The position numbers and the translations under genes were made by a program. Of a stretch of 64,000 nt of DNA, positions 22,058-40,356 are shown one piece after another. The stretch covers positions 62,001 through 126,000 of the forward strand of contig NZ_MCBX01000003.1 of assembly GCF_001723685.1 (NCBI RefSeq). The letters are read 5' to 3'. A model generated the notes under the pieces. It ran no database searches. It had not been told where the DNA came from and saw nothing but the letters and a program-made list of their open reading frames with translations. Numbering within the stretch: the first letter of the stretch is position 1; every line of letters starts with the position of its first letter. Source of the DNA: Candidatus Marithrix sp. Canyon 246. Lineage in GTDB: Bacteria; Pseudomonadota; Gammaproteobacteria; Beggiatoales; Beggiatoaceae.

Positions 22058-22906
22058 TTATTTATACATATAAGTTTTGGTACGAATTTTCCAACCAGCA
22101 AACCAGCGAGATTCATTACGTTGTGCTGGAGAATTTTGAATACGACGTTTCAGTACATATTCAGCACTGTTGGCAAATTCTGTCATAACATCATCAGCAT
22201 TATTTGACATATTTTCTAAGACTTGTAATAAGCCCCAGCCTTGACCATTATAACGTTCAGTCGGTTTAGTACCTTCACCTTTGAAATTAACATAATCAAT
22301 TAGGGCATAAATACCATTAGGTCTGGCATTTGCTACTTGATAAAATTGTTCACGTACATGATCACGTTTTCGTTCAGAAGTTAAGCTATCCAACATAATT
22401 GGTAATGCTTTTTCTAAACGTTGAATAATAAATTGTACTTGTTGAGGGATAGTATTTTCAAGCAATGTACGTAATTCATTCATGCGAGAACTGTTCTGAT
22501 CCCTTTTGAAGGCTTCATGAGATTTCCAAGGGGCATCTTCAGGTAACCAAGTTGGAGTTGCTACTCCTTGTTGTTCTAAAAAGGCGATTAAATCAGGAAA
22601 AGTTTCATGAAAACGTCCTTCTTGAGCGGCAGGATACCAAATAAAATGACCAATACCTAGTGAGGCAAAATTTTCACCTTTATTCCAAGCGGTTAAATGT
22701 TCTACTTTCGCAGAACCTTCATTCATCCAAATTTTGTGTCCAATTTCCTTAGCTTCAGCCATTGCAACTTGGATGTATTTAGGTTTGGGTGCTTCATCTA
22801 CGACTGTTATGGGTTTTGCTTCTGGTGGCGGTGTTTCTGTGGTAGCACAAGCTGAGAATAAAAATGCTACTAAAAACATTGATGTTTTAATATACATATG
22901 ATTCAT
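22058..22906 (-). CDS. Lipoprotein of unknown function
   Basis: 282 residues. Signal ends at C20 (FSAC), then a Pro/Glu-rich linker. The rest (from ~45) is a single globular part with E63 (WMNEG) and a GIGHF motif at 84-88, a layout slightly like the Glu...G-x-GH of lysozyme-type muramidases; this is a guess from two short words. GWGLLQVLENM and RWFAGWK are other notable runs. The family appears in sulfur-oxidising bacteria as hypothetical proteins. It lies downstream of the O-antigen-ligase-like gene (36 bp) on the same strand and may belong to that operon. Confidence 0.6.
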   Translation of the reverse strand: MNHMYIKTSMFLVAFLFSACATTETPPPEAKPITVVDEAPKPKYIQVAMAEAKEIGHKIWMNEGSAKVEHLTAWNKGENFASLGIGHFIWYPAAQEGRFHETFPDLIAFLEQQGVATPTWLPEDAPWKSHEAFKRDQNSSRMNELRTLLENTIPQQVQFIIQRLEKALPIMLDSLTSERKRDHVREQFYQVANARPNGIYALIDYVNFKGEGTKPTERYNGQGWGLLQVLENMSNNADDVMTEFANSAEYVLKRRIQNSPAQRNESRWFAGWKIRTKTYMYK

Positions 22907-22942
22907 AATGGTCTTATAAGTTATTTAAAAAATTATATCTTA

Positions 22943-24328
22943 TCACAAAATCCGCCTAAATCGAAACTTAGGTTCTGGTGCAGCAGCCACTAATCCACTA
23001 GTGGTTTTTTGTAAGTTTTGATTATAAAATAATAAATAACCTTCACTCCAACCTAACAATAAAAATAATAGATAAATGGTTTGTTCTCCTAGCCAAACTG
23101 TAGCTATTGACCAAACTATTACAATATATATACTAAACAAAGTAAAACCTAGTGAGCTACCTAATGGCTGAGCTACTGGTTGTAACATTGCATGAGCAAA
23201 TAAGCGCGTCATCATACTTAACAATAAAGCTAATAATAATCCTAAACCCATCATGCCATGTTGTAAAAAAATCAATAAATAATAATTATCAATTGAAGGT
23301 TGAGAAGGAACTTTTGGCCATGTCATACGCCCCCAGCCCCATACAAAACGTTTATTTGCTATATCAACATAATTTTCTATCAATTGCCAACGATATGCTA
23401 CTGTTTGTTGATTTTCATTTCTTGCTAGTGCTGGATCTACAGAGGCATAATTAATAAACCAACTGATTGCTGGAATACCTACAATTACAAATAATGCTAC
23501 CAGTGTCCAAAATATCGTCCAACGTTTTTTGGTTTTACCAATTAATAGTACAATTGCCGCAACAATTGCACCGCTTAAAGGGCCTCGTACTAAAGTTATC
23601 AATGCCCCTATAAATAAGGTAATGGTTAATAAAGTTGGCAAAGGTATTGGTAACCATTGTAATTGAGCTGGACGTTGAGGCCATGCTTGACTCCACTGTA
23701 ACCAACGTTGAATTCGATAGCCTACAACCATTACAATACCTGCTAAAATAGCATGACCAAATGGACCGGCGGCGCGTGGTAAACCCCAACGATATTGAGT
23801 CGGCCATTCCCAACCTTGTCCACCAAAAAATGGTCCCATCACTTTTTGCCATAAAGTAAAATCTGCTTTTGTCACGGTCTGAAATAAAGCAAATACAGTT
23901 ACCACTGCTAGAACAATTACAATGCTTTTAGCAAATTGTATCCGTAAACCGGCTGGTTCAATTAATGCTTTGGCTAAAACATAAGGTGCTATCACAGCTC
24001 CAATTACAGTGGCAATAAAATTTTGTGATTCCTTATAGCCAACATTGCTATATTCTGAATATATAAGTGTTAGAGCAAAGCCAAATACTAATACATCAGT
24101 AAATGAAAACTTCCACCCCGGGGTACCTCGTATAAACCAAACTCCTAAAATAGCTAAAATAGCCGCTTGTTGAGCATTAGGATCAGGTAAACCCGGGGCT
24201 TTCCAATAATAATAAGTAGGTATAAATAACAATACAGGCACATAAATTTTTAAAAAAGCCTTATGTGGTGATTGTGTTAAAGCATAATAAAATGCAATAA
24301 AGCCGGGTATAAGAATAATAATTGACAT
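22943..24328 (-). CDS. O-antigen-ligase/polymerase-like membrane protein
   Basis: 461 residues with about 11-12 hydrophobic segments. The Wzy_C-type region is seen around 240-350: LVRGPLSGAIVA with its Arg, then RWQLIENYVDIANKRFVWGWG and DNYYLLIFLQHGMMGLGLL. These resemble O-antigen ligase WaaL and polysaccharide polymerases, which act on lipid-linked sugars in the periplasm. It lies 6 bp after the kinase gene, so it belongs to the signalling operon. No glycosyltransferase is next to it. Its place suggests that kinase signalling acts on surface polysaccharide. Confidence 0.75.
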   Translation of the reverse strand: MSIIILIPGFIAFYYALTQSPHKAFLKIYVPVLLFIPTYYYWKAPGLPDPNAQQAAILAILGVWFIRGTPGWKFSFTDVLVFGFALTLIYSEYSNVGYKESQNFIATVIGAVIAPYVLAKALIEPAGLRIQFAKSIVIVLAVVTVFALFQTVTKADFTLWQKVMGPFFGGQGWEWPTQYRWGLPRAAGPFGHAILAGIVMVVGYRIQRWLQWSQAWPQRPAQLQWLPIPLPTLLTITLFIGALITLVRGPLSGAIVAAIVLLIGKTKKRWTIFWTLVALFVIVGIPAISWFINYASVDPALARNENQQTVAYRWQLIENYVDIANKRFVWGWGRMTWPKVPSQPSIDNYYLLIFLQHGMMGLGLLLALLLSMMTRLFAHAMLQPVAQPLGSSLGFTLFSIYIVIVWSIATVWLGEQTIYLLFLLLGWSEGYLLFYNQNLQKTTSGLVAAAPEPKFRFRRIL

Positions 24329-24334
24329 TTTTAT

Positions 24335-25627
24335 TTAAGCCACAATTTCTGCTGCTACTTCTCCAATTTTAAGTTTTAAGCCTAATCTTAAAGGAGCAGC
24401 GCGTTGTGGTTCTATTACTTTTTTTGTTCCGTCAGGAAATAGAGCAGTCCATTCCATTGTCGTTAAATTTCTAATTCCCCATATTTTGGGATTATTAGGA
24501 TTTTGGACGACTTGCCCAATAAGCTGAGATTCTGTAAATAATTGTTTGTTACTAGTTAATAATACAATCTGTTGACTAGTTTCATCTGTTAAAACTAATT
24601 TAGGTGCTATGGGAATTTCGCTATTACAATGCCAACAATTAAGTGGTGCTTGATCCCATAAATTTTCTGCTTGACATTTATTGCAGTTAATACTACCATT
24701 TTTTAGTTGCAAGAATAACTGTTGCCATTCGCCTTCTGTTACACGTGAACTAGGATTATGAATGCCATCAGTAAAAGCGCGAATAAATAAAGCTTGTAAT
24801 GAAGCAGGGCAATAGTTCCAACGTTTATTAGCGGTACTATATTCAGGATCATTAGGTAATTTATTACGATTATCAATCGGGTCAAAAATAAAAACTGGTA
24901 TTTCAGCATAAATACGCCGCTTAGCTGGAATATCCCAAACATAAATGTTATATTCCATTTGTCCATGAAATGGATGATGCCATACCCAAATATTAAATAA
25001 TAATACCGCTAAAGCATATAAATCGGTTTCAATAGAAGGATCAGCTTTTGCTAGTATTAATTCTGGTGCCATATACTCCATAGTTCCCCATACTTGGGAT
25101 TTGGATTGGCGATTAATACCTACATTATCATTATCACAAATTAAAACTTCGCCGCTATTTGGGTCAAACATAATATTACCAGCAGCAATATCACGATAAC
25201 AATAACCGCTTAAATGTAAAGCGCGATAACTATTGGCAATTTGATAAGATATTTCGCAAAGAGTTGGCAAGCTAGGAGCTGGTTTACGATGTGCTTGCAC
25301 TTCCCCTAATTCTGCAAAACGATTGGTATCAATAAGCGGCATTAAATAGCCAAATTCTTTTATTTGTTCTATAGTTATTATGTCTAGCGGCCAAATAAAA
25401 CGTTGCCCAGCAATACCAGTTGGTCCACCTTGTTTAACTAAATAATTAATAGCTTCTTTTTGTTCTTGCGTTGATTGTTCAAAGCTATACCATTTTAAAG
25501 CATAGGTATTTTCACCATCAGTGACGCTATAAACTTCACCTTGACCACCTTCACCTAATTTTTCTTGTACTACTAGTCTTTGTTCTAAGGTATTTGCGTA
25601 AACTAATTGTCCTTTTTCTAATGACAT
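24335..25627 (-). CDS. Ser/Thr protein kinase with zinc ribbon and FHA-like tail
   Basis: 430 residues. The kinase domain (~18-305) has the glycine loop GEGGQGEV (25-32), ATP lysine K45, catalytic YRDIAAGN (D146, N151), and D165 in DND in place of DFG. GTMEYMAPEL is the activation-segment end. HRD and DFG are altered (YRD, DND), but all chemically needed residues are present. A four-cysteine zinc ribbon (C315, C318, C331, C334) follows, then an all-beta region (342-430, LRLGLKLKIG) that resembles an FHA fold. Such kinases accompany TerY-type VWA and PP2C proteins. It lies 3 bp after the gene at 25631. Confidence 0.85.
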   Translation of the reverse strand: MSLEKGQLVYANTLEQRLVVQEKLGEGGQGEVYSVTDGENTYALKWYSFEQSTQEQKEAINYLVKQGGPTGIAGQRFIWPLDIITIEQIKEFGYLMPLIDTNRFAELGEVQAHRKPAPSLPTLCEISYQIANSYRALHLSGYCYRDIAAGNIMFDPNSGEVLICDNDNVGINRQSKSQVWGTMEYMAPELILAKADPSIETDLYALAVLLFNIWVWHHPFHGQMEYNIYVWDIPAKRRIYAEIPVFIFDPIDNRNKLPNDPEYSTANKRWNYCPASLQALFIRAFTDGIHNPSSRVTEGEWQQLFLQLKNGSINCNKCQAENLWDQAPLNCWHCNSEIPIAPKLVLTDETSQQIVLLTSNKQLFTESQLIGQVVQNPNNPKIWGIRNLTTMEWTALFPDGTKKVIEPQRAAPLRLGLKLKIGEVAAEIVA

Positions 25628-25630
25628 TGC

Positions 25631-26056
25631 TTAAAACACCAATAATGCTAATATGGAAATAATTAATAACCATATTATAGTTAATAATATATTAATACGT
25701 TTTTGACTATAATTAATATTCTTAGTTAGGGATGATTTAATTTCTACTCCTAAAGCAAGTGCCCAACTTTCTACTGCCCAAGCAGCAACTTTTTTATCTA
25801 AGCCGACATTATCATAAAGTCGTTGTACTAAACGATTAAATAAAGCTGCCTTTGGTAAACCTCGTGGTGGATTTAACAAATCTGCTGCTACTCTTTGTTT
25901 TAAAGCATTAATTAAGGCAAAAATTTCAGCTTTATATTTTTTTTTACCAGCACACATATCTTGTAACCATGCTTCACAACGTTTCTGATCTTCACATATA
26001 GTATTGCCATGAGAATTAATTAATTCTTGCAATTTTTTACGCGGAAAATTGTTCAT
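25631..26056 (-). CDS. Tail-anchored protein with shared helical domain
   Basis: 141 residues. Residues ~8-105 share a helical domain with the downstream half of the preceding gene's product: HGNTICEDQKRCEAWLQDMC, LLNPPRGLPK, then AAWAVESWALAL. A transmembrane helix (121-140) ends the protein with no periplasmic domain, so it is probably anchored by its C-terminus facing the cytoplasm. It overlaps the previous gene by 4 bp. This helical domain is common in bacterial proteins next to kinases and PEGA domains and has no assigned function. The two genes look like a duplication where one copy kept PEGA. Confidence 0.75.
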   Translation of the reverse strand: MNNFPRKKLQELINSHGNTICEDQKRCEAWLQDMCAGKKKYKAEIFALINALKQRVAADLLNPPRGLPKAALFNRLVQRLYDNVGLDKKVAAWAVESWALALGVEIKSSLTKNINYSQKRINILLTIIWLLIISILALLVF

Positions 26057-26880
26057 TTTTGTCTTCGCAATTTGACTTTAATGATTTTAGTCTTTTGCAA
26101 ATTAATTTGCTGTTCAAATGCAATATAATTTGGTTTTTCAATTCGCAAAGTATATAAGCCCGGTGCGAGTGCTATATTATATAATGGTGTAGTTCCATAA
26201 GCTTTACCATTAATAAATACTTTATCATGATAAACATTTGAACGAATGGTCAAAGGGATGGTTTTGATTGCTGGTTGCTTTTTTTCAATCAGTTGTGGAG
26301 CAATTGGTTCCAGTTTTACTTGTGTTGTTGCTTCTGGTTCAACCAATAAAAAGACTATACTAAAAAAAAGAACAAGGCTAATAATTGCTAATGCTTTAAC
26401 AGAGAAACGCCCTTTTGAGAGTTTATCTAATGAATTAGCCCAAGTGCTGACAGCCCATGCTGATAATTTTTTATCTAAACCTAAACCCTTATGTAAACGA
26501 GCAGTTAAGTAAGAAAATAATTGATTTTTTGGTAACCATAGAGGCGGATTCAGCAAATTTTCTGTGATTTTTTCTTTTAAAGCATTAACTAATAATGAGA
26601 TTTCACGTTGATGTTTGCCACCACAACTATCCCTTAATAAAGCTTCACAACGTTTAGGATCTTCACACAAACAAGTACCATAATGGTTAATAAGTTGTGA
26701 TAGGGCTTTATTAGGAGTCACATATGGTTTTTTTATGTGATGATCAAATACTCGCTGCTGATATTGTTTGGTTAGCAAGACTTCTAAACCTGCTTTTATT
26801 AAAGCATTTTTATCAGTAATTCCTGTTAATTCAGAAGCATTATCTAAAAGACTATCATCAATATTCAAGCTAGTTTTCAT
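26053..26880 (-). CDS. VapB-like RHH / helical domain / TM / PEGA fusion
   Basis: 275 residues with four parts. Residues 1-40 read like a VapB-family ribbon-helix-helix antitoxin (MKTSLNIDDSLLDNASELTG, then ALIKAGLEVLL). Residues ~58-152 are the helical domain shared with the next gene (CEDPKRCEALL, SAWAVSTWANSL). 163-180 is a transmembrane helix. 208-273 is a PEGA domain (VFINGKAYGTTPL, YTLRIEKPNY), periplasmic by topology. A DNA-binding-type domain in a membrane protein is unusual; the antitoxin part may act only for dimerisation. It sits between phosphatase and helical/kinase genes in a tightly packed operon. Confidence 0.8.
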   Translation of the reverse strand: MKTSLNIDDSLLDNASELTGITDKNALIKAGLEVLLTKQYQQRVFDHHIKKPYVTPNKALSQLINHYGTCLCEDPKRCEALLRDSCGGKHQREISLLVNALKEKITENLLNPPLWLPKNQLFSYLTARLHKGLGLDKKLSAWAVSTWANSLDKLSKGRFSVKALAIISLVLFFSIVFLLVEPEATTQVKLEPIAPQLIEKKQPAIKTIPLTIRSNVYHDKVFINGKAYGTTPLYNIALAPGLYTLRIEKPNYIAFEQQINLQKTKIIKVKLRRQK

Positions 26881-26889
26881 GAAAAAACC

Positions 26890-27735
26890 TTATGAAAGTT
26901 GAAAATAATCTGTGAACATGACTAATGTGATATCGTCACCAGTTGCTTGTGAAGAATAGTCATCTAACCATTGTGGTAATACAGATTCAACTGATTTCAT
27001 TCCAAATTCCTGAATTCGTCGAAAAGTACTACTGCAAAAAGCATGAAATTGTACTTCATCTATAAACGCATTACTTAAACCATCAGTTGCTAATATTAAA
27101 GCTTCTCCTTTATTGCGTGTCAATATAACAATTTCCCAAAGTTTATCTGCACCCGGTGATGATAAAGAATAAGTATAATTAGCAATTAATTCATTATTTT
27201 CATTAAATAGATTTTCTATTTGATTTTCAGCAGTAAAACGCAGTATATCACCATCCCCAATTTTTCCCATTAGTAATATATCTGGTAACACCAATGCCAC
27301 TAATAAAGTAGTGCCATAGCGTTTTATCATATAAGTATCATTTTGTTGTGTTAATGCAATCGGTAGAGATAATCTACGATTAAGTGCATCTTTTAATATA
27401 GCATTACGCCAATGCAAACCAAGGCGACGAGGAAAATTATCTTTAAAATTCTTTTTTAATAAGGTTAGACTCTTTTCTTGTGCATAAAAATTTTTAAAAA
27501 ATGCTAGTAATTCTTTGATAGCAATTTCAACAGCATACTCTGCGCCGTATTGACTTAAATCATGATCTTTACTACCATGCCCATCCGCAACTGCTATAGC
27601 TAGACATTGTTTATCATCTATGCGTGTAGAAGCAACTGCATAAGCGTCTTGACAAGCAGTATGATTTTTACGGTGAGAAGCACCACGCCGCTTATTAGCT
27701 AACACCCAACCTAATTCTGTTTGTTGTAATGACAT
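26890..27735 (-). CDS. PP2C-family protein phosphatase
   Basis: 281 residues. The metal-binding aspartates are in place: D30 (TACQDAY), D51 of VADGHGS (D51-G52), D161 in GKIGDGD, D218 in ILATDGL, and D267-D268 in TGDDITLVMF. A single domain fills the length. It removes phosphate from Ser/Thr and should oppose the kinase two genes downstream. It follows the VWA gene by 5 bp. Together VWA-PP2C-kinase is the TerY-P triad described by comparative genomics of tellurite/stress systems. Confidence 0.9.
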   Translation of the reverse strand: MSLQQTELGWVLANKRRGASHRKNHTACQDAYAVASTRIDDKQCLAIAVADGHGSKDHDLSQYGAEYAVEIAIKELLAFFKNFYAQEKSLTLLKKNFKDNFPRRLGLHWRNAILKDALNRRLSLPIALTQQNDTYMIKRYGTTLLVALVLPDILLMGKIGDGDILRFTAENQIENLFNENNELIANYTYSLSSPGADKLWEIVILTRNKGEALILATDGLSNAFIDEVQFHAFCSSTFRRIQEFGMKSVESVLPQWLDDYSSQATGDDITLVMFTDYFQLS

Positions 27736-27740
27736 AGTAA

Positions 27741-28463
27741 TTAAAATACATCATTAGAATCTGCTAATGTAGGTTGAGATTTAGGAGGTGGGCTAAGAAT
27801 GATATTGTCATTATTTCTATTTTCTTTAAGATTAGCCTGTGAGGCACCAATTGTAGCAGTGACGCTAGCCCATTTGATATATTTAATAAGTTTTGCCGGA
27901 TTATCTGCTTTAAGAACACCAATATCTTTATGACTGACAAATTTTAATAATTGATCTTCATCATAATCTGATTCATCACCTATAGCGATAGCTAAACGTA
28001 CTGCCTTTTTACCCCAAGGTTGAGTTATTAACTTATTAATTGCGTTAATATATTCTTGTTCTGGATCAGTGCAGAAACCATCAGATATTAATAAACAAAC
28101 CGGTGGTAATCCACGTCGTGGCATTTTTTCAAAGCTTAATTCATCAGCTAATAAGTCAATTGCTTTGGCAGTAGCTGTCATTCCATCAACATCTAATTCT
28201 GGCCATGAAAATTTTTCTAAAGATACAGCGTTTGGTCCTACATGCCAGCTAGCATCATCGGCAAATTTAATAACACGCATATTGACTTGTACTTGAGGAT
28301 GATGAGATAATGCTTTTTTTACTTCTGGTAAAGCCTCACGAATTGCTTGGTTTAATGTAGCTATTTTTTGGCCGCTCATTGAGCCTGAATAATCAGTTAT
28401 CCAAAAAAACTCTAAGGGACGTTTAGCAACTTCCCCACTTGGTGAAGGTATATTTGTTGTCAT
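27741..28463 (-). CDS. TerY-like von Willebrand A domain protein
   Basis: 240 residues with a complete MIDAS: D24-Y-S26-G-S28 (DYSGSM), T96 (GMTAT) and D128 (ISDGF). The VWA domain spans ~17-205; a short disordered Pro/Asn-rich tail follows. No signal peptide, so it is cytoplasmic. VWA proteins of the TerY type bind metal and partners. First gene of a six-gene unit with spacings from -4 to +9 bp. The region before it (28464-28595) is AT-rich, with no clear promoter found. Ter genes proper (terB/C/D) are not in the window. Confidence 0.85.
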   Translation of the reverse strand: MTTNIPSPSGEVAKRPLEFFWITDYSGSMSGQKIATLNQAIREALPEVKKALSHHPQVQVNMRVIKFADDASWHVGPNAVSLEKFSWPELDVDGMTATAKAIDLLADELSFEKMPRRGLPPVCLLISDGFCTDPEQEYINAINKLITQPWGKKAVRLAIAIGDESDYDEDQLLKFVSHKDIGVLKADNPAKLIKYIKWASVTATIGASQANLKENRNNDNIILSPPPKSQPTLADSNDVF

Positions 28464-28613
28464 AATTTATATTATATATTTTGCTTGAATTACTACCATA
28501 ATAATTTAACTAGCAAAAGTCATGGCAGTTTTTTAAAATCTTTAAAAAAATGTTTAATTGTTTATAATTGATGATTTCATATTTTCAAACCCTCTTTGGT
28601 TAAAAAATTAATT

Positions 28614-30838: not shown

Positions 30839-31838
30839 ATGTACAAAAATAGAATAGATAGAGATAGTTATCTACATAGTTTATTAGCAGAATTATGTCA
30901 TCTACTTGTGTGGGGTATTGATGATCAAACTCATGAAATTGTTGGAACCGACTTTAAACACCGTTGTGTTAAAAAAGGTAATGAGGAACTAGAGAGTTGG
31001 TTATTACGCTTGTTCAATCCCAAAATAGAATTTCGTTTTTTTGAACTGCTTGCAAATGATCAACCAGTGGTTATTTTGGAAATTAATTGTGCTAATCATG
31101 AACCAGTTAAGTTTAAAGGCACGGCGTATATTCGTATAGGAAGTTATAAAAAACGACTTAAAGATTTTCCAGAAAAAGAACGTAAATTATGGCGTTTATT
31201 TGATAAAACCCCCTTTTGAACATCAAATTGCTCTCAATAATCTAAACGCTGATGAAGTCTTAATTTGTTTAGATTATCCTGCTTATTTTGATTTAACAGC
31301 ACAAAATTTACCTAGTAATAAAAACGGTATTCTGCAACAGTTGGAAGCCGAAAAAATGATTAGAAAACATCGTATAGAAATGACCAATACAGGTAAACCA
31401 TTAGTTGATCCTCAACGTTTTTTAGACACTCCGCCTCAGTCGCGTAATGAACCATTAGCGGCTTTTTTGCGGCGTATTGAAGTTTGTGAAGAACGTGGTA
31501 GTGGTATTGATAAAATAATGCAAGCGATTGAAAAACATCATTATCATTTACCTGCACCACAGTTTGAAGTACTAGAAAAACATACTCGTGTTACGCTTTC
31601 AGCAACCAAAACTTTTGCAAAAATGAATCGAGAAGAACGAATCATGACTTGTTATTTTCATGCTGGTTTGAAATATATAAATAAAAGCTATATGACAAGA
31701 ACTTCTTTGCGCCAACGCTTACGCTGTAGCGATAATGCGGCTAAACAAGTCATTGGACAAACTTGTGAAAAATCTTTGCTTCGCTTATCAAATCCTGAAG
31801 CTAAACGTAATTTTCAATATTTGCCTTATTGGGCATAA
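30839..31838 (+). pseudogene. AlbA_2 (COG2865) regulator with frameshift and deletion
   Basis: The first frame (30839-31219) encodes the AlbA_2-type domain (WLLRLFNPKIEFRFFE, then GTAYIRIGSYKK). It ends at a TGA where the C5T4 run (31209-31217) shifts the frame; removing one T restores DKTPFEHQIALNNL. The second frame continues to 31838 with a winged-helix-like part and PGKPLVDP-like and NEPLAAFLRRI...CEERGSGIDK motifs of the ATPase-like domain. About 150 residues between LEAEKMIRK and HRIEMTN, compared with family members, are missing. So it is broken twice; a read error could explain only the first. Confidence 0.75.
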
Positions 31839-39783: not shown

Positions 39784-40203
39784 TCAACAATCCCCATCTT
39801 CATTTTCCCGACTAAATTTCATATTACCAAACCGTAACACTAATTCTGCTAATGTAAGAATGAAAATAGCAATGGTCAGCGTTATAATTGATTCATTTGG
39901 CAATGTTTTTATATCAATTGCAAGCAGTCTAGTTAAAGCTGTAATTGCTATATAGATTAAGAATCTTACTGGTAAGCGGTGAGTCTTAAAATAAATGCCG
40001 ATCATCGCACCTAATTCTAGGTAGATGAATAATAGTAGAATATCATCTAACCCAGCATGTGATTGGTGCATTATACCTATATAAGCATGAACTGCTGACC
40101 AAACTACAGTTCCTCCAACCACAAATAATCCAACGGTGTGAAATAGTTCGACTAATACATCGCCTGCTTTTTCTATGTAATTAAATGATTTAGTATTTCT
40201 CAT
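39784..40203 (-). CDS. PsiE-family membrane protein
   Basis: 139 residues with four hydrophobic segments (~20-40, ~50-72, ~78-95, ~107-125). LVELFHTVGLFVV, then LEMG-like LELGAMIGIYFKTHRLPVRF and ALTRLLAID are the phosphate-starvation-inducible PsiE family. Function is not known. It follows cydX by the palindrome at 40212; it may be read with the cyd operon if the palindrome does not terminate. Confidence 0.8.
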   Translation of the reverse strand: MRNTKSFNYIEKAGDVLVELFHTVGLFVVGGTVVWSAVHAYIGIMHQSHAGLDDILLLFIYLELGAMIGIYFKTHRLPVRFLIYIAITALTRLLAIDIKTLPNESIITLTIAIFILTLAELVLRFGNMKFSRENEDGDC

Positions 40204-40211
40204 ATATAATA

Positions 40212-40244
40212 AAACCTGACAGGTTTTAAAAACCTGTCAGGTTT
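40212..40244. repeat. Dispersed palindrome, copy 4
   Basis: Arms aaacctgacaggttt and aaacctgtcaggttt around a two-to-three-base centre. Between the cydX stop (40249) and the psiE start (40203). Confidence 0.9.
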
Positions 40245-40248
40245 CTAA

Positions 40249-40356
40249 TTAATCAGAATTTGCTTCCAAATTCTCTTCAGCTTCTAACCATAATAGATTA
40301 ATGATACCTATTGAACTGGCTAATAATACTCCTAATATCCAAGCAAAATACCACAT
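40249..40356 (-). CDS. cydX: Cytochrome bd small subunit CydX
   Basis: 35 residues: MWYFAWILGVLLASSIGIIN, then LLWLEAEENLEANSD. The first 25 match CydX exactly in pattern (one TM helix starting MWYFAW). It stabilises heme d and the bd oxidase. It lies 15 bp after cydB on the same strand. Too short for most gene finders. Confidence 0.95.
   Translation of the reverse strand: MWYFAWILGVLLASSIGIINLLWLEAEENLEANSD

Follow-up and report, generated by a model that had tools for sequence, protein, structure and literature searches.

A signalling set of three proteins known as the TerY-P triad was reportedly set out by Anantharaman et al. in 2012. Where PMC11090510 deals with it, the triad consists of a VWA protein, a PP2C phosphatase and a kinase with a zinc ribbon. 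A VWA protein, a PP2C protein and a kinase with a zinc ribbon and a beta-rich domain are also linked to GAP1-N2 systems of actinobacteria in sections of PMC7159879, a paper in whose text the word TerY is absent, and kinase fusions are a subject of PMC1262709. The principle of effector-associated domains (EADs) is laid out in parts of PMC7159879 and extended in parts of PMC8195603. Here we describe an operon of six minus-strand genes from the filamentous sulfur bacterium Candidatus Marithrix sp. Canyon 246 (contig NZ_MCBX01000003.1, positions 62,001 to 126,000; this whole stretch of 64,000 nucleotides is called the window), in which a TerY-P-like triad stands together with a helical domain, named HEL, that two further genes have in common. 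We favour, as the probable explanation, that a TerY-P-like phosphorylation switch is the product of the operon and that HEL is a docking adaptor bringing interchangeable tail modules to this switch.

The sequence evidence supports the assignment of the VWA, PP2C and zinc-ribbon kinase genes to a TerY-P-like triad. In an alignment of VWA matches with E<1e-40 and near full length, window protein included, the residues that we take to form the metal ion-dependent adhesion site (MIDAS; Table 1) were conserved in 34/34 sequences, and the presumed metal-site residues of the PP2C protein were conserved in 35/35. The VWA protein was too divergent for an accepted Pfam match (best VWA_CoxE, E=0.11, below cut-off), and the PADLOC TerY model weakly matched two VWA relatives (E=4.5e-4 and 2e-3) and not the window VWA itself. 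Plasmid VWA homologues were 28-41% identical (best 15 of 37 matches), and the VWA open reading frames (ORFs) of the ter plasmid region matched the VWA family hidden Markov model (HMM) at 1e-14 to 1e-37. In the kinase, K45, D146, N151 and D165-N-D167 were invariant in 35/35 sequences, as were the four zinc-ribbon cysteines, in an alignment that leaves out the partial kinase L156. Zinc ribbon and beta tail lay in the same protein as the kinase domain in 37 of the 38 loci that have this domain, the remaining one (L164) ending at a contig edge. These results bear out the first-pass annotation of the window, which had named a TerY-like VWA protein with a D24-x-S-x-S MIDAS, a PP2C phosphatase and a zinc-ribbon kinase as the TerY-P set. 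Its proposal of an FHA-like kinase tail was not confirmed: the tail is all-beta in the kinase model (mean pLDDT 90.6), but no FHA model was found for it among the best 25 of 29 Pfam families or among PDB sequences. The best 50 matches in a fold search with the whole kinase model were kinase structures.

The third and fourth genes, encoding proteins of 275 and 141 amino acids (aa), were found to contain one homologous domain of ~100 residues, which had gone unnoticed in the first-pass annotation. The two copies of this HEL domain are ~50% identical, and L9, L31, W93 and W98 were invariant in 104 sequences; three domains (L072 twice, L096) were left out of one HEL comparison. The HEL model consists of seven helices (mean pLDDT 93.2, pTM 0.87). 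No Pfam family accounted for the 104 domains (best E 0.0033, at most 6 members per model, among the best 25 of 40 models), PDB sequences contained no HEL relative, and fold searches gave no significant match (Foldseek best E=2.3; VIA-align best Z 4.8, to a designed cage). The 141-aa ORF as a whole likewise had no Pfam family over the cut-off (best E 0.1). In other respects the two proteins had been described correctly, one as a fusion of a VapB-type ribbon-helix-helix (RHH) segment, a transmembrane (TM) segment and a PEGA domain, and the other as a tail-anchored helical protein. The presence of membrane-anchored helical proteins in the triad unit stood, with the correction that the pair is the local form of a HEL component that recurs beside the triad in several phyla. 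Between the two available Marithrix genomes, pairwise dN/dS along the 275-aa protein was 0.60 for RHH, 0.28 for HEL, 0.55 for linker and TM, and 0.30 for PEGA. A type II toxin-antitoxin system of the VapB type was rejected as an explanation of the RHH segment, which has no adjacent VapC toxin gene and is fused to HEL-TM-PEGA between the PP2C and HEL genes.

Scanning of named genomes yielded 76 HEL loci, and the HMM detected HEL again in 72 of them. They came from Gammaproteobacteria, Chloroflexi, Cyanobacteria, Acidobacteria, Gemmataceae, Armatimonadetes, Riflebacteria, Nitrospina and Halanaerobacter, mostly from metagenome-assembled genomes, for which single taxon assignments may be wrong. 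Near HEL, at least one of VWA, PP2C and kinase was present in 44 of the 72 loci, at least two in 36 and all three in 25; after removal of five loci already known from related genomes (L104, L107, L108, L138, L141) these numbers were 40, 32 and 23 of 67. Gene orders such as VWA>PP2C>HEL>KIN and HEL>KIN>VWA>PP2C recurred in Gammaproteobacteria, Chloroflexi, Acidobacteria, Cyanobacteria, Gemmataceae, Riflebacteria and Halanaerobacter. Among 57 related genomes, VWA matches were present in 23 and matches of the whole 275-aa protein in 25, some of the latter via PEGA or RHH only; 21 genomes around G232 added nothing. HEL and the kinase tail co-occurred both in 274 genomes of the class (tail in 2, HEL in 3, both in 2 including the window's own genome; Fisher 8e-5) and in 42 genomes of the family (tail in 13, HEL in 27, both in 12, the one exception being a 59% complete genome; p=0.011), and HEL distances correlated with core-protein distances over 28 loci (r 0.57-0.77; 0/2000 permutations), all three being comparisons that ignore common descent. 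A Methylomonas plasmid (L217), the one plasmid record with HEL, carries KIN, VWA and PP2C together with five HEL genes, and two direct fusions join HEL to a core protein, HEL-VWA (L150:7998-8897) and PP2C-HEL (L165:907-3237). The window's own genome has a second triad locus (G000:C10:31064-36101; L073:9064-14101) with the genes VWA, PP2C, HEL, kinase and HEL; in its counterpart in the sister genome (L072), the HEL tails are LRR.

What follows the HEL head varied widely. In 94 HEL proteins of named genomes (a set omitting five duplicate loci, tails <30 aa and proteins >1300 aa), the most frequent partners among the best 25 of 119 models were FGE-sulfatase-type (18), Lcl_C (17), LRR_4 (13) and WD40 (8) domains, and PEGA may also occur outside these 25 families. 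In the window's family, 47 HEL proteins had, in addition, PIF1-type helicase (8), PEGA (2), MORN (2) and multi-TM tails; PEGA and VapB matched 2 of the 47, which fits the two Marithrix proteins. Altogether 135 tails fell into 24 sequence clusters by single linkage, the largest of which (52) mixes LRR- and Lcl_C-type tails. Heads were more alike within a locus than between loci, with a median identity of 0.74 compared to 0.41 for random between-locus pairs (32 loci with at least two HEL genes, 50 pairs); the protein values of L159 (1.0) and L165 (0.0) in the head comparison per locus are alignment artefacts, L159 having 0.37 on the common alignment. Tandem duplication by itself would suffice for this likeness, but several heads that are almost the same sit on unlike tails. 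In L079, two heads were 97% identical in DNA on tails without detectable similarity, and a third head (98%) has the tail of one of them, with an aligner that yields ~0.65-0.75 for unrelated DNA. Near-identical heads with unlike tails were also found in L111 (93%), L171 (92%) and L137 (89%). In three Methylococcales operons (L150, L152, L155), heads 94-96% identical in protein carry a VWA tail (by HMM), an LRR tail and an Lcl_C tail (by eye). A crude reverse transcriptase motif scan, with no positive control, gave no diversity-generating retroelement beside the lectin-like FGE and Lcl_C tails. Two ORFs (2268 and 1058 aa) of a Caldilineaceae locus (L171:1167-11177) contain tandem HEL domains.

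Several observations weigh against HEL as an adaptor of the switch. No core gene was present inside the stretch examined in 28 of the 72 HEL loci, some of which lie on cut contigs, and the kinase tail was missing in 15 of the 27 HEL-bearing family genomes (with a marginal match in one of these 27); HEL thus also exists apart from the switch. Conversely, the 18 places with a kinase tail in the family had HEL within 4 kb in 8 cases and were on a contig lacking HEL in another 8; in the remaining 2, from the near-closed genomes G010 and G028, HEL is 640-670 kb off and VWA-PP2C occupy a third site. Fusion to a core protein was limited to the two cases above, and PP2C-HEL corresponds to two genes in the related locus L154. 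At E<1, HEL was absent from the triad of a Prevotella plasmid (L218) and from the ter plasmid region (L219), which has VWA and kinase ORFs. Lastly, sensor-like and effector-like tails are mixed, so that signalling may run in either direction.

A different role would be that HEL is a mere kinase substrate or a general oligomerisation domain and that the proximity of the triad reflects regulation of unrelated proteins instead of docking. The 15 family genomes with HEL and no kinase tail favour this role, as do HEL heads joined to a PIF1-type helicase or a multi-TM tail where the triad is missing. Against it stand the similar heads that bear different tails inside operons of the triad, together with HEL-VWA and PP2C-HEL, and we consider it rather unlikely. 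Helicase fusions at loci that lack the kinase were seen in L083:8725-10452, L085:5973-7631 and L086:787-2370.

We also regard as improbable that the operon is an anti-phage or conflict system in which the HEL-tail proteins are the effectors, as in EAD systems. The arrangement does resemble the EAD grammar of a small helical head on many tails, FGE and peptidoglycan-associated domains among them, as given in sections of PMC7159879; TerY-P-like modules with an OB-fold kinase are described as antiphage in a part of PMC11090510; and the window kinase resembles PADLOC mad6 (3e-22). This last match lies within the kinase domain, however, and is general. In addition, the window copy is found among cysM-, folC- and truA-like housekeeping genes (names by reading translations), and many tails are binding domains, not toxins. 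No HEL was confirmed in viral contigs and none was present in phage records, although this is silent on defence as such.

HEL as a docking adaptor remains the explanation that we favour. It starts from features read directly in the sequence: the genes present, their catalytic and metal residues, the homology of the HEL copies and their recurrence beside the triad, unlike tails on like heads and the cohesion of the Marithrix block described below. The switch would consist of a metal-dependent VWA protein, a zinc-ribbon kinase and a PP2C eraser, with HEL as the fourth component. The HEL head would dock a client protein onto the switch, and the tail would set what is sensed or acted on. Both Marithrix HEL clients have a predicted membrane anchor, so that the switch would sit at the inner face of the cytoplasmic membrane. 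In the periplasm, the PEGA domain would hold the cell wall or give a readout of its state, and a link from the signal to DNA may run through the RHH segment of the 275-aa protein. In whichever direction signalling runs, phosphorylation of the client or a partner by the kinase would be undone by PP2C, with the MIDAS of the VWA protein as the gate for assembly. The Wzy-type ligase, which would be co-transcribed with the other genes, probably joined the transcription unit in Marithrix and may be an output.

On the basis of this sixth gene, the first-pass annotation had suggested that the unit may link the switch to cell-surface glycan assembly. The gene itself was read correctly, with a Wzy_C domain in a multi-TM protein whose sister protein has seven hydrophobic segments. 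Relatives (40-92% identity) occurred in 20 of 57 genomes, of which only the two from Marithrix have them next to the switch; a few of those in the 18 other genomes lie at contig ends, where this negative is weak. The relatives had no constant neighbours in six loci, and Wzy occurred in 1 of the 76 named HEL loci, namely the Marithrix one. The Wzy relative of G032 has a HEL-helicase gene ~11 kb away on its contig. Co-occurrence of the families was found for the triad with HEL, in several phyla, and not for the ligase, which was rejected as a core part outside Marithrix.

Within the genus, the six genes are collinear in both genomes, with homology covering the six genes and ~85 bp upstream and ending at the block, and the folC-, truA- and cysM-like flanks map to other sister-genome contigs. 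The second triad locus is likewise kept as a block within the stretches compared. Because gene order is generally scrambled, the surviving block shows operon cohesion and not function. The idea of six genes as one unit is upheld to this extent, the ligase not being a general member. A lipoprotein gene had been noted as following 36 bp later; the spacing of this 282-aa ORF (22058-22906), which has no Pfam family, was as described, but it lies outside the common block and was rejected as a member, since its stretch maps to another sister-genome contig and a PqiA-like gene follows Wzy there. That a dedicated six-gene unit controls surface glycan assembly via the ligase is quite unlikely, for although the kept block and a Wzy dN/dS of 0.14 speak for it, the scattered relatives and the little that a single surviving operon says in scrambled genomes speak against it, and with homologous operons lacking the ligase the link is at most genus-specific.

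Coordinates are collected in Table 1. All six ORFs were present with gaps of -4 to +9 bp, as annotated (in 5'->3' order 5, 9, -4, 3 and 6 bp), and their pairwise dN/dS between the Marithrix genomes was 0.14-0.48. Nothing was found that splits the unit: no terminator-like site lay between the six genes, two minus-strand sites falling within the kinase and ligase genes, and promoter-like matches were no commoner than in shuffles (30 versus a mean of 31.5). The upstream stretch that stays with the block (query 15-84) corresponds to G001:C6:134688-134758.

Table 1. Features of the Marithrix operon, in window coordinates.
Feature	Position	Strand	Evidence
TerY-like VWA protein, 240 aa	27741..28463	-	MIDAS D24-x-S26-x-S28, T96, D128
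PP2C-type Ser/Thr phosphatase, 281 aa	26890..27735	-	PP2C_2 3.9e-39; D51-G-H-G, D161, D218-G, D267-D268
HEL-TM-PEGA protein with N-terminal VapB-type RHH, 275 aa	26053..26880	-	
RHH / VapB-type segment, residues 1-41 of 275-aa protein	26758..26880	-	VapB_antitoxin 3.1e-9
HEL adaptor domain (putative), residues 55-152 of 275-aa protein	26425..26718	-	HMM 2e-39
Single TM segment, residues 163-181 of 275-aa protein	26338..26394	-	Hydropathy only
PEGA domain, residues 210-272 of 275-aa protein, presumed periplasmic	26065..26253	-	4.5e-14
HEL with C-terminal membrane anchor, 141 aa	25631..26056	-	HMM 2e-45; hydrophobic segment 123-141
Ser/Thr kinase, 430 aa: kinase domain, zinc ribbon C315/C318/C331/C334, all-beta tail	24335..25627	-	Pkinase 3.5e-20
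Wzy/WaaL-type O-antigen ligase-like protein, 461 aa	22943..24328	-	Wzy_C 1.2e-13; genus-specific unit member
Upstream stretch, possible promoter region	28478..28547	-	94% identical in sister genome, stays with block

Elsewhere in the window, two overlapping plus-strand ORFs (30839-31838) are, by the impression from their translations, perhaps one interrupted gene, and a REP-like short stretch (40194-40270) has dozens of scattered matches on both strands of the sister genome.

We would give even chances to a wider reading, in which a four-part signalling platform is widespread, with constant HEL on exchangeable tails and heads kept alike within a locus, and in which the Marithrix copy represents the version that faces membrane and wall. 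This arrangement can be likened to constant and variable regions, in that the head is kept and the tail replaced. If true, TerY-P-like switches would be a base for exchangeable sensors or effectors via one docking domain and not fixed three-part devices, a large number of lectin-like, LRR, WD40 and membrane proteins that lack annotation would come under a single testable interface, and there would be a bacterial parallel to adaptor-domain signalling. The triad is already known; as for the novelty of HEL as a fourth component on variable tails, no HEL-like fourth component appeared among the titles and abstract openings listed, which cover open-licence papers only and are weak evidence.

Compared with the TerY-P triad, the locus likewise combines, within a single operon, a TerY-like VWA protein, a PP2C protein and a kinase that carries a zinc ribbon in its C-terminal part; it differs in the HEL component with variable tails beside the triad and in the extra beta tail of the kinase. 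The GAP1-N2-linked set has the same three proteins and kinase layout in the relevant sections of PMC7159879, whereas the present loci are from other phyla and HEL has no description in sections 29-30 of that paper. As in TerY-P-containing CoCoNuTs, to judge from the part of PMC11090510 concerned, the triad is an add-on module; unlike there, no McrB-like or HEPN gene turned up in the annotations, in which no search was aimed at those genes. The triad on the Prevotella plasmid pE2-28 (L218; NZ_CP091789.1, 31000-47000) has a related kinase tail and stands with two proteins with another helical head, one of them with FGE. This head is a possible distant counterpart of HEL, the match being weak (hhalign probability 9.5%, E 0.0034), and its relatives were confined to pE2-28 itself among plasmids, with none in phages or viral contigs. 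With regard to EADs, no EAD model was among the best 25 of 40 Pfam families at E<=1 for the 104 HEL domains, in a comparison without a profile-profile step. HEL nevertheless has the EAD-type trait of a small non-enzymatic domain in several proteins per locus with diverse partners. As far as the relevant parts of PMC7159879 and PMC8195603 go, HEL resembles EADs and bacterial Death-like domains in being a small helical head with several copies per locus, many partners and neighbours most alike, and differs from the EAD principle, under which one copy is always joined to a core component, in that such fusions of HEL are rare, HEL-VWA and PP2C-HEL being the only ones among the loci read.

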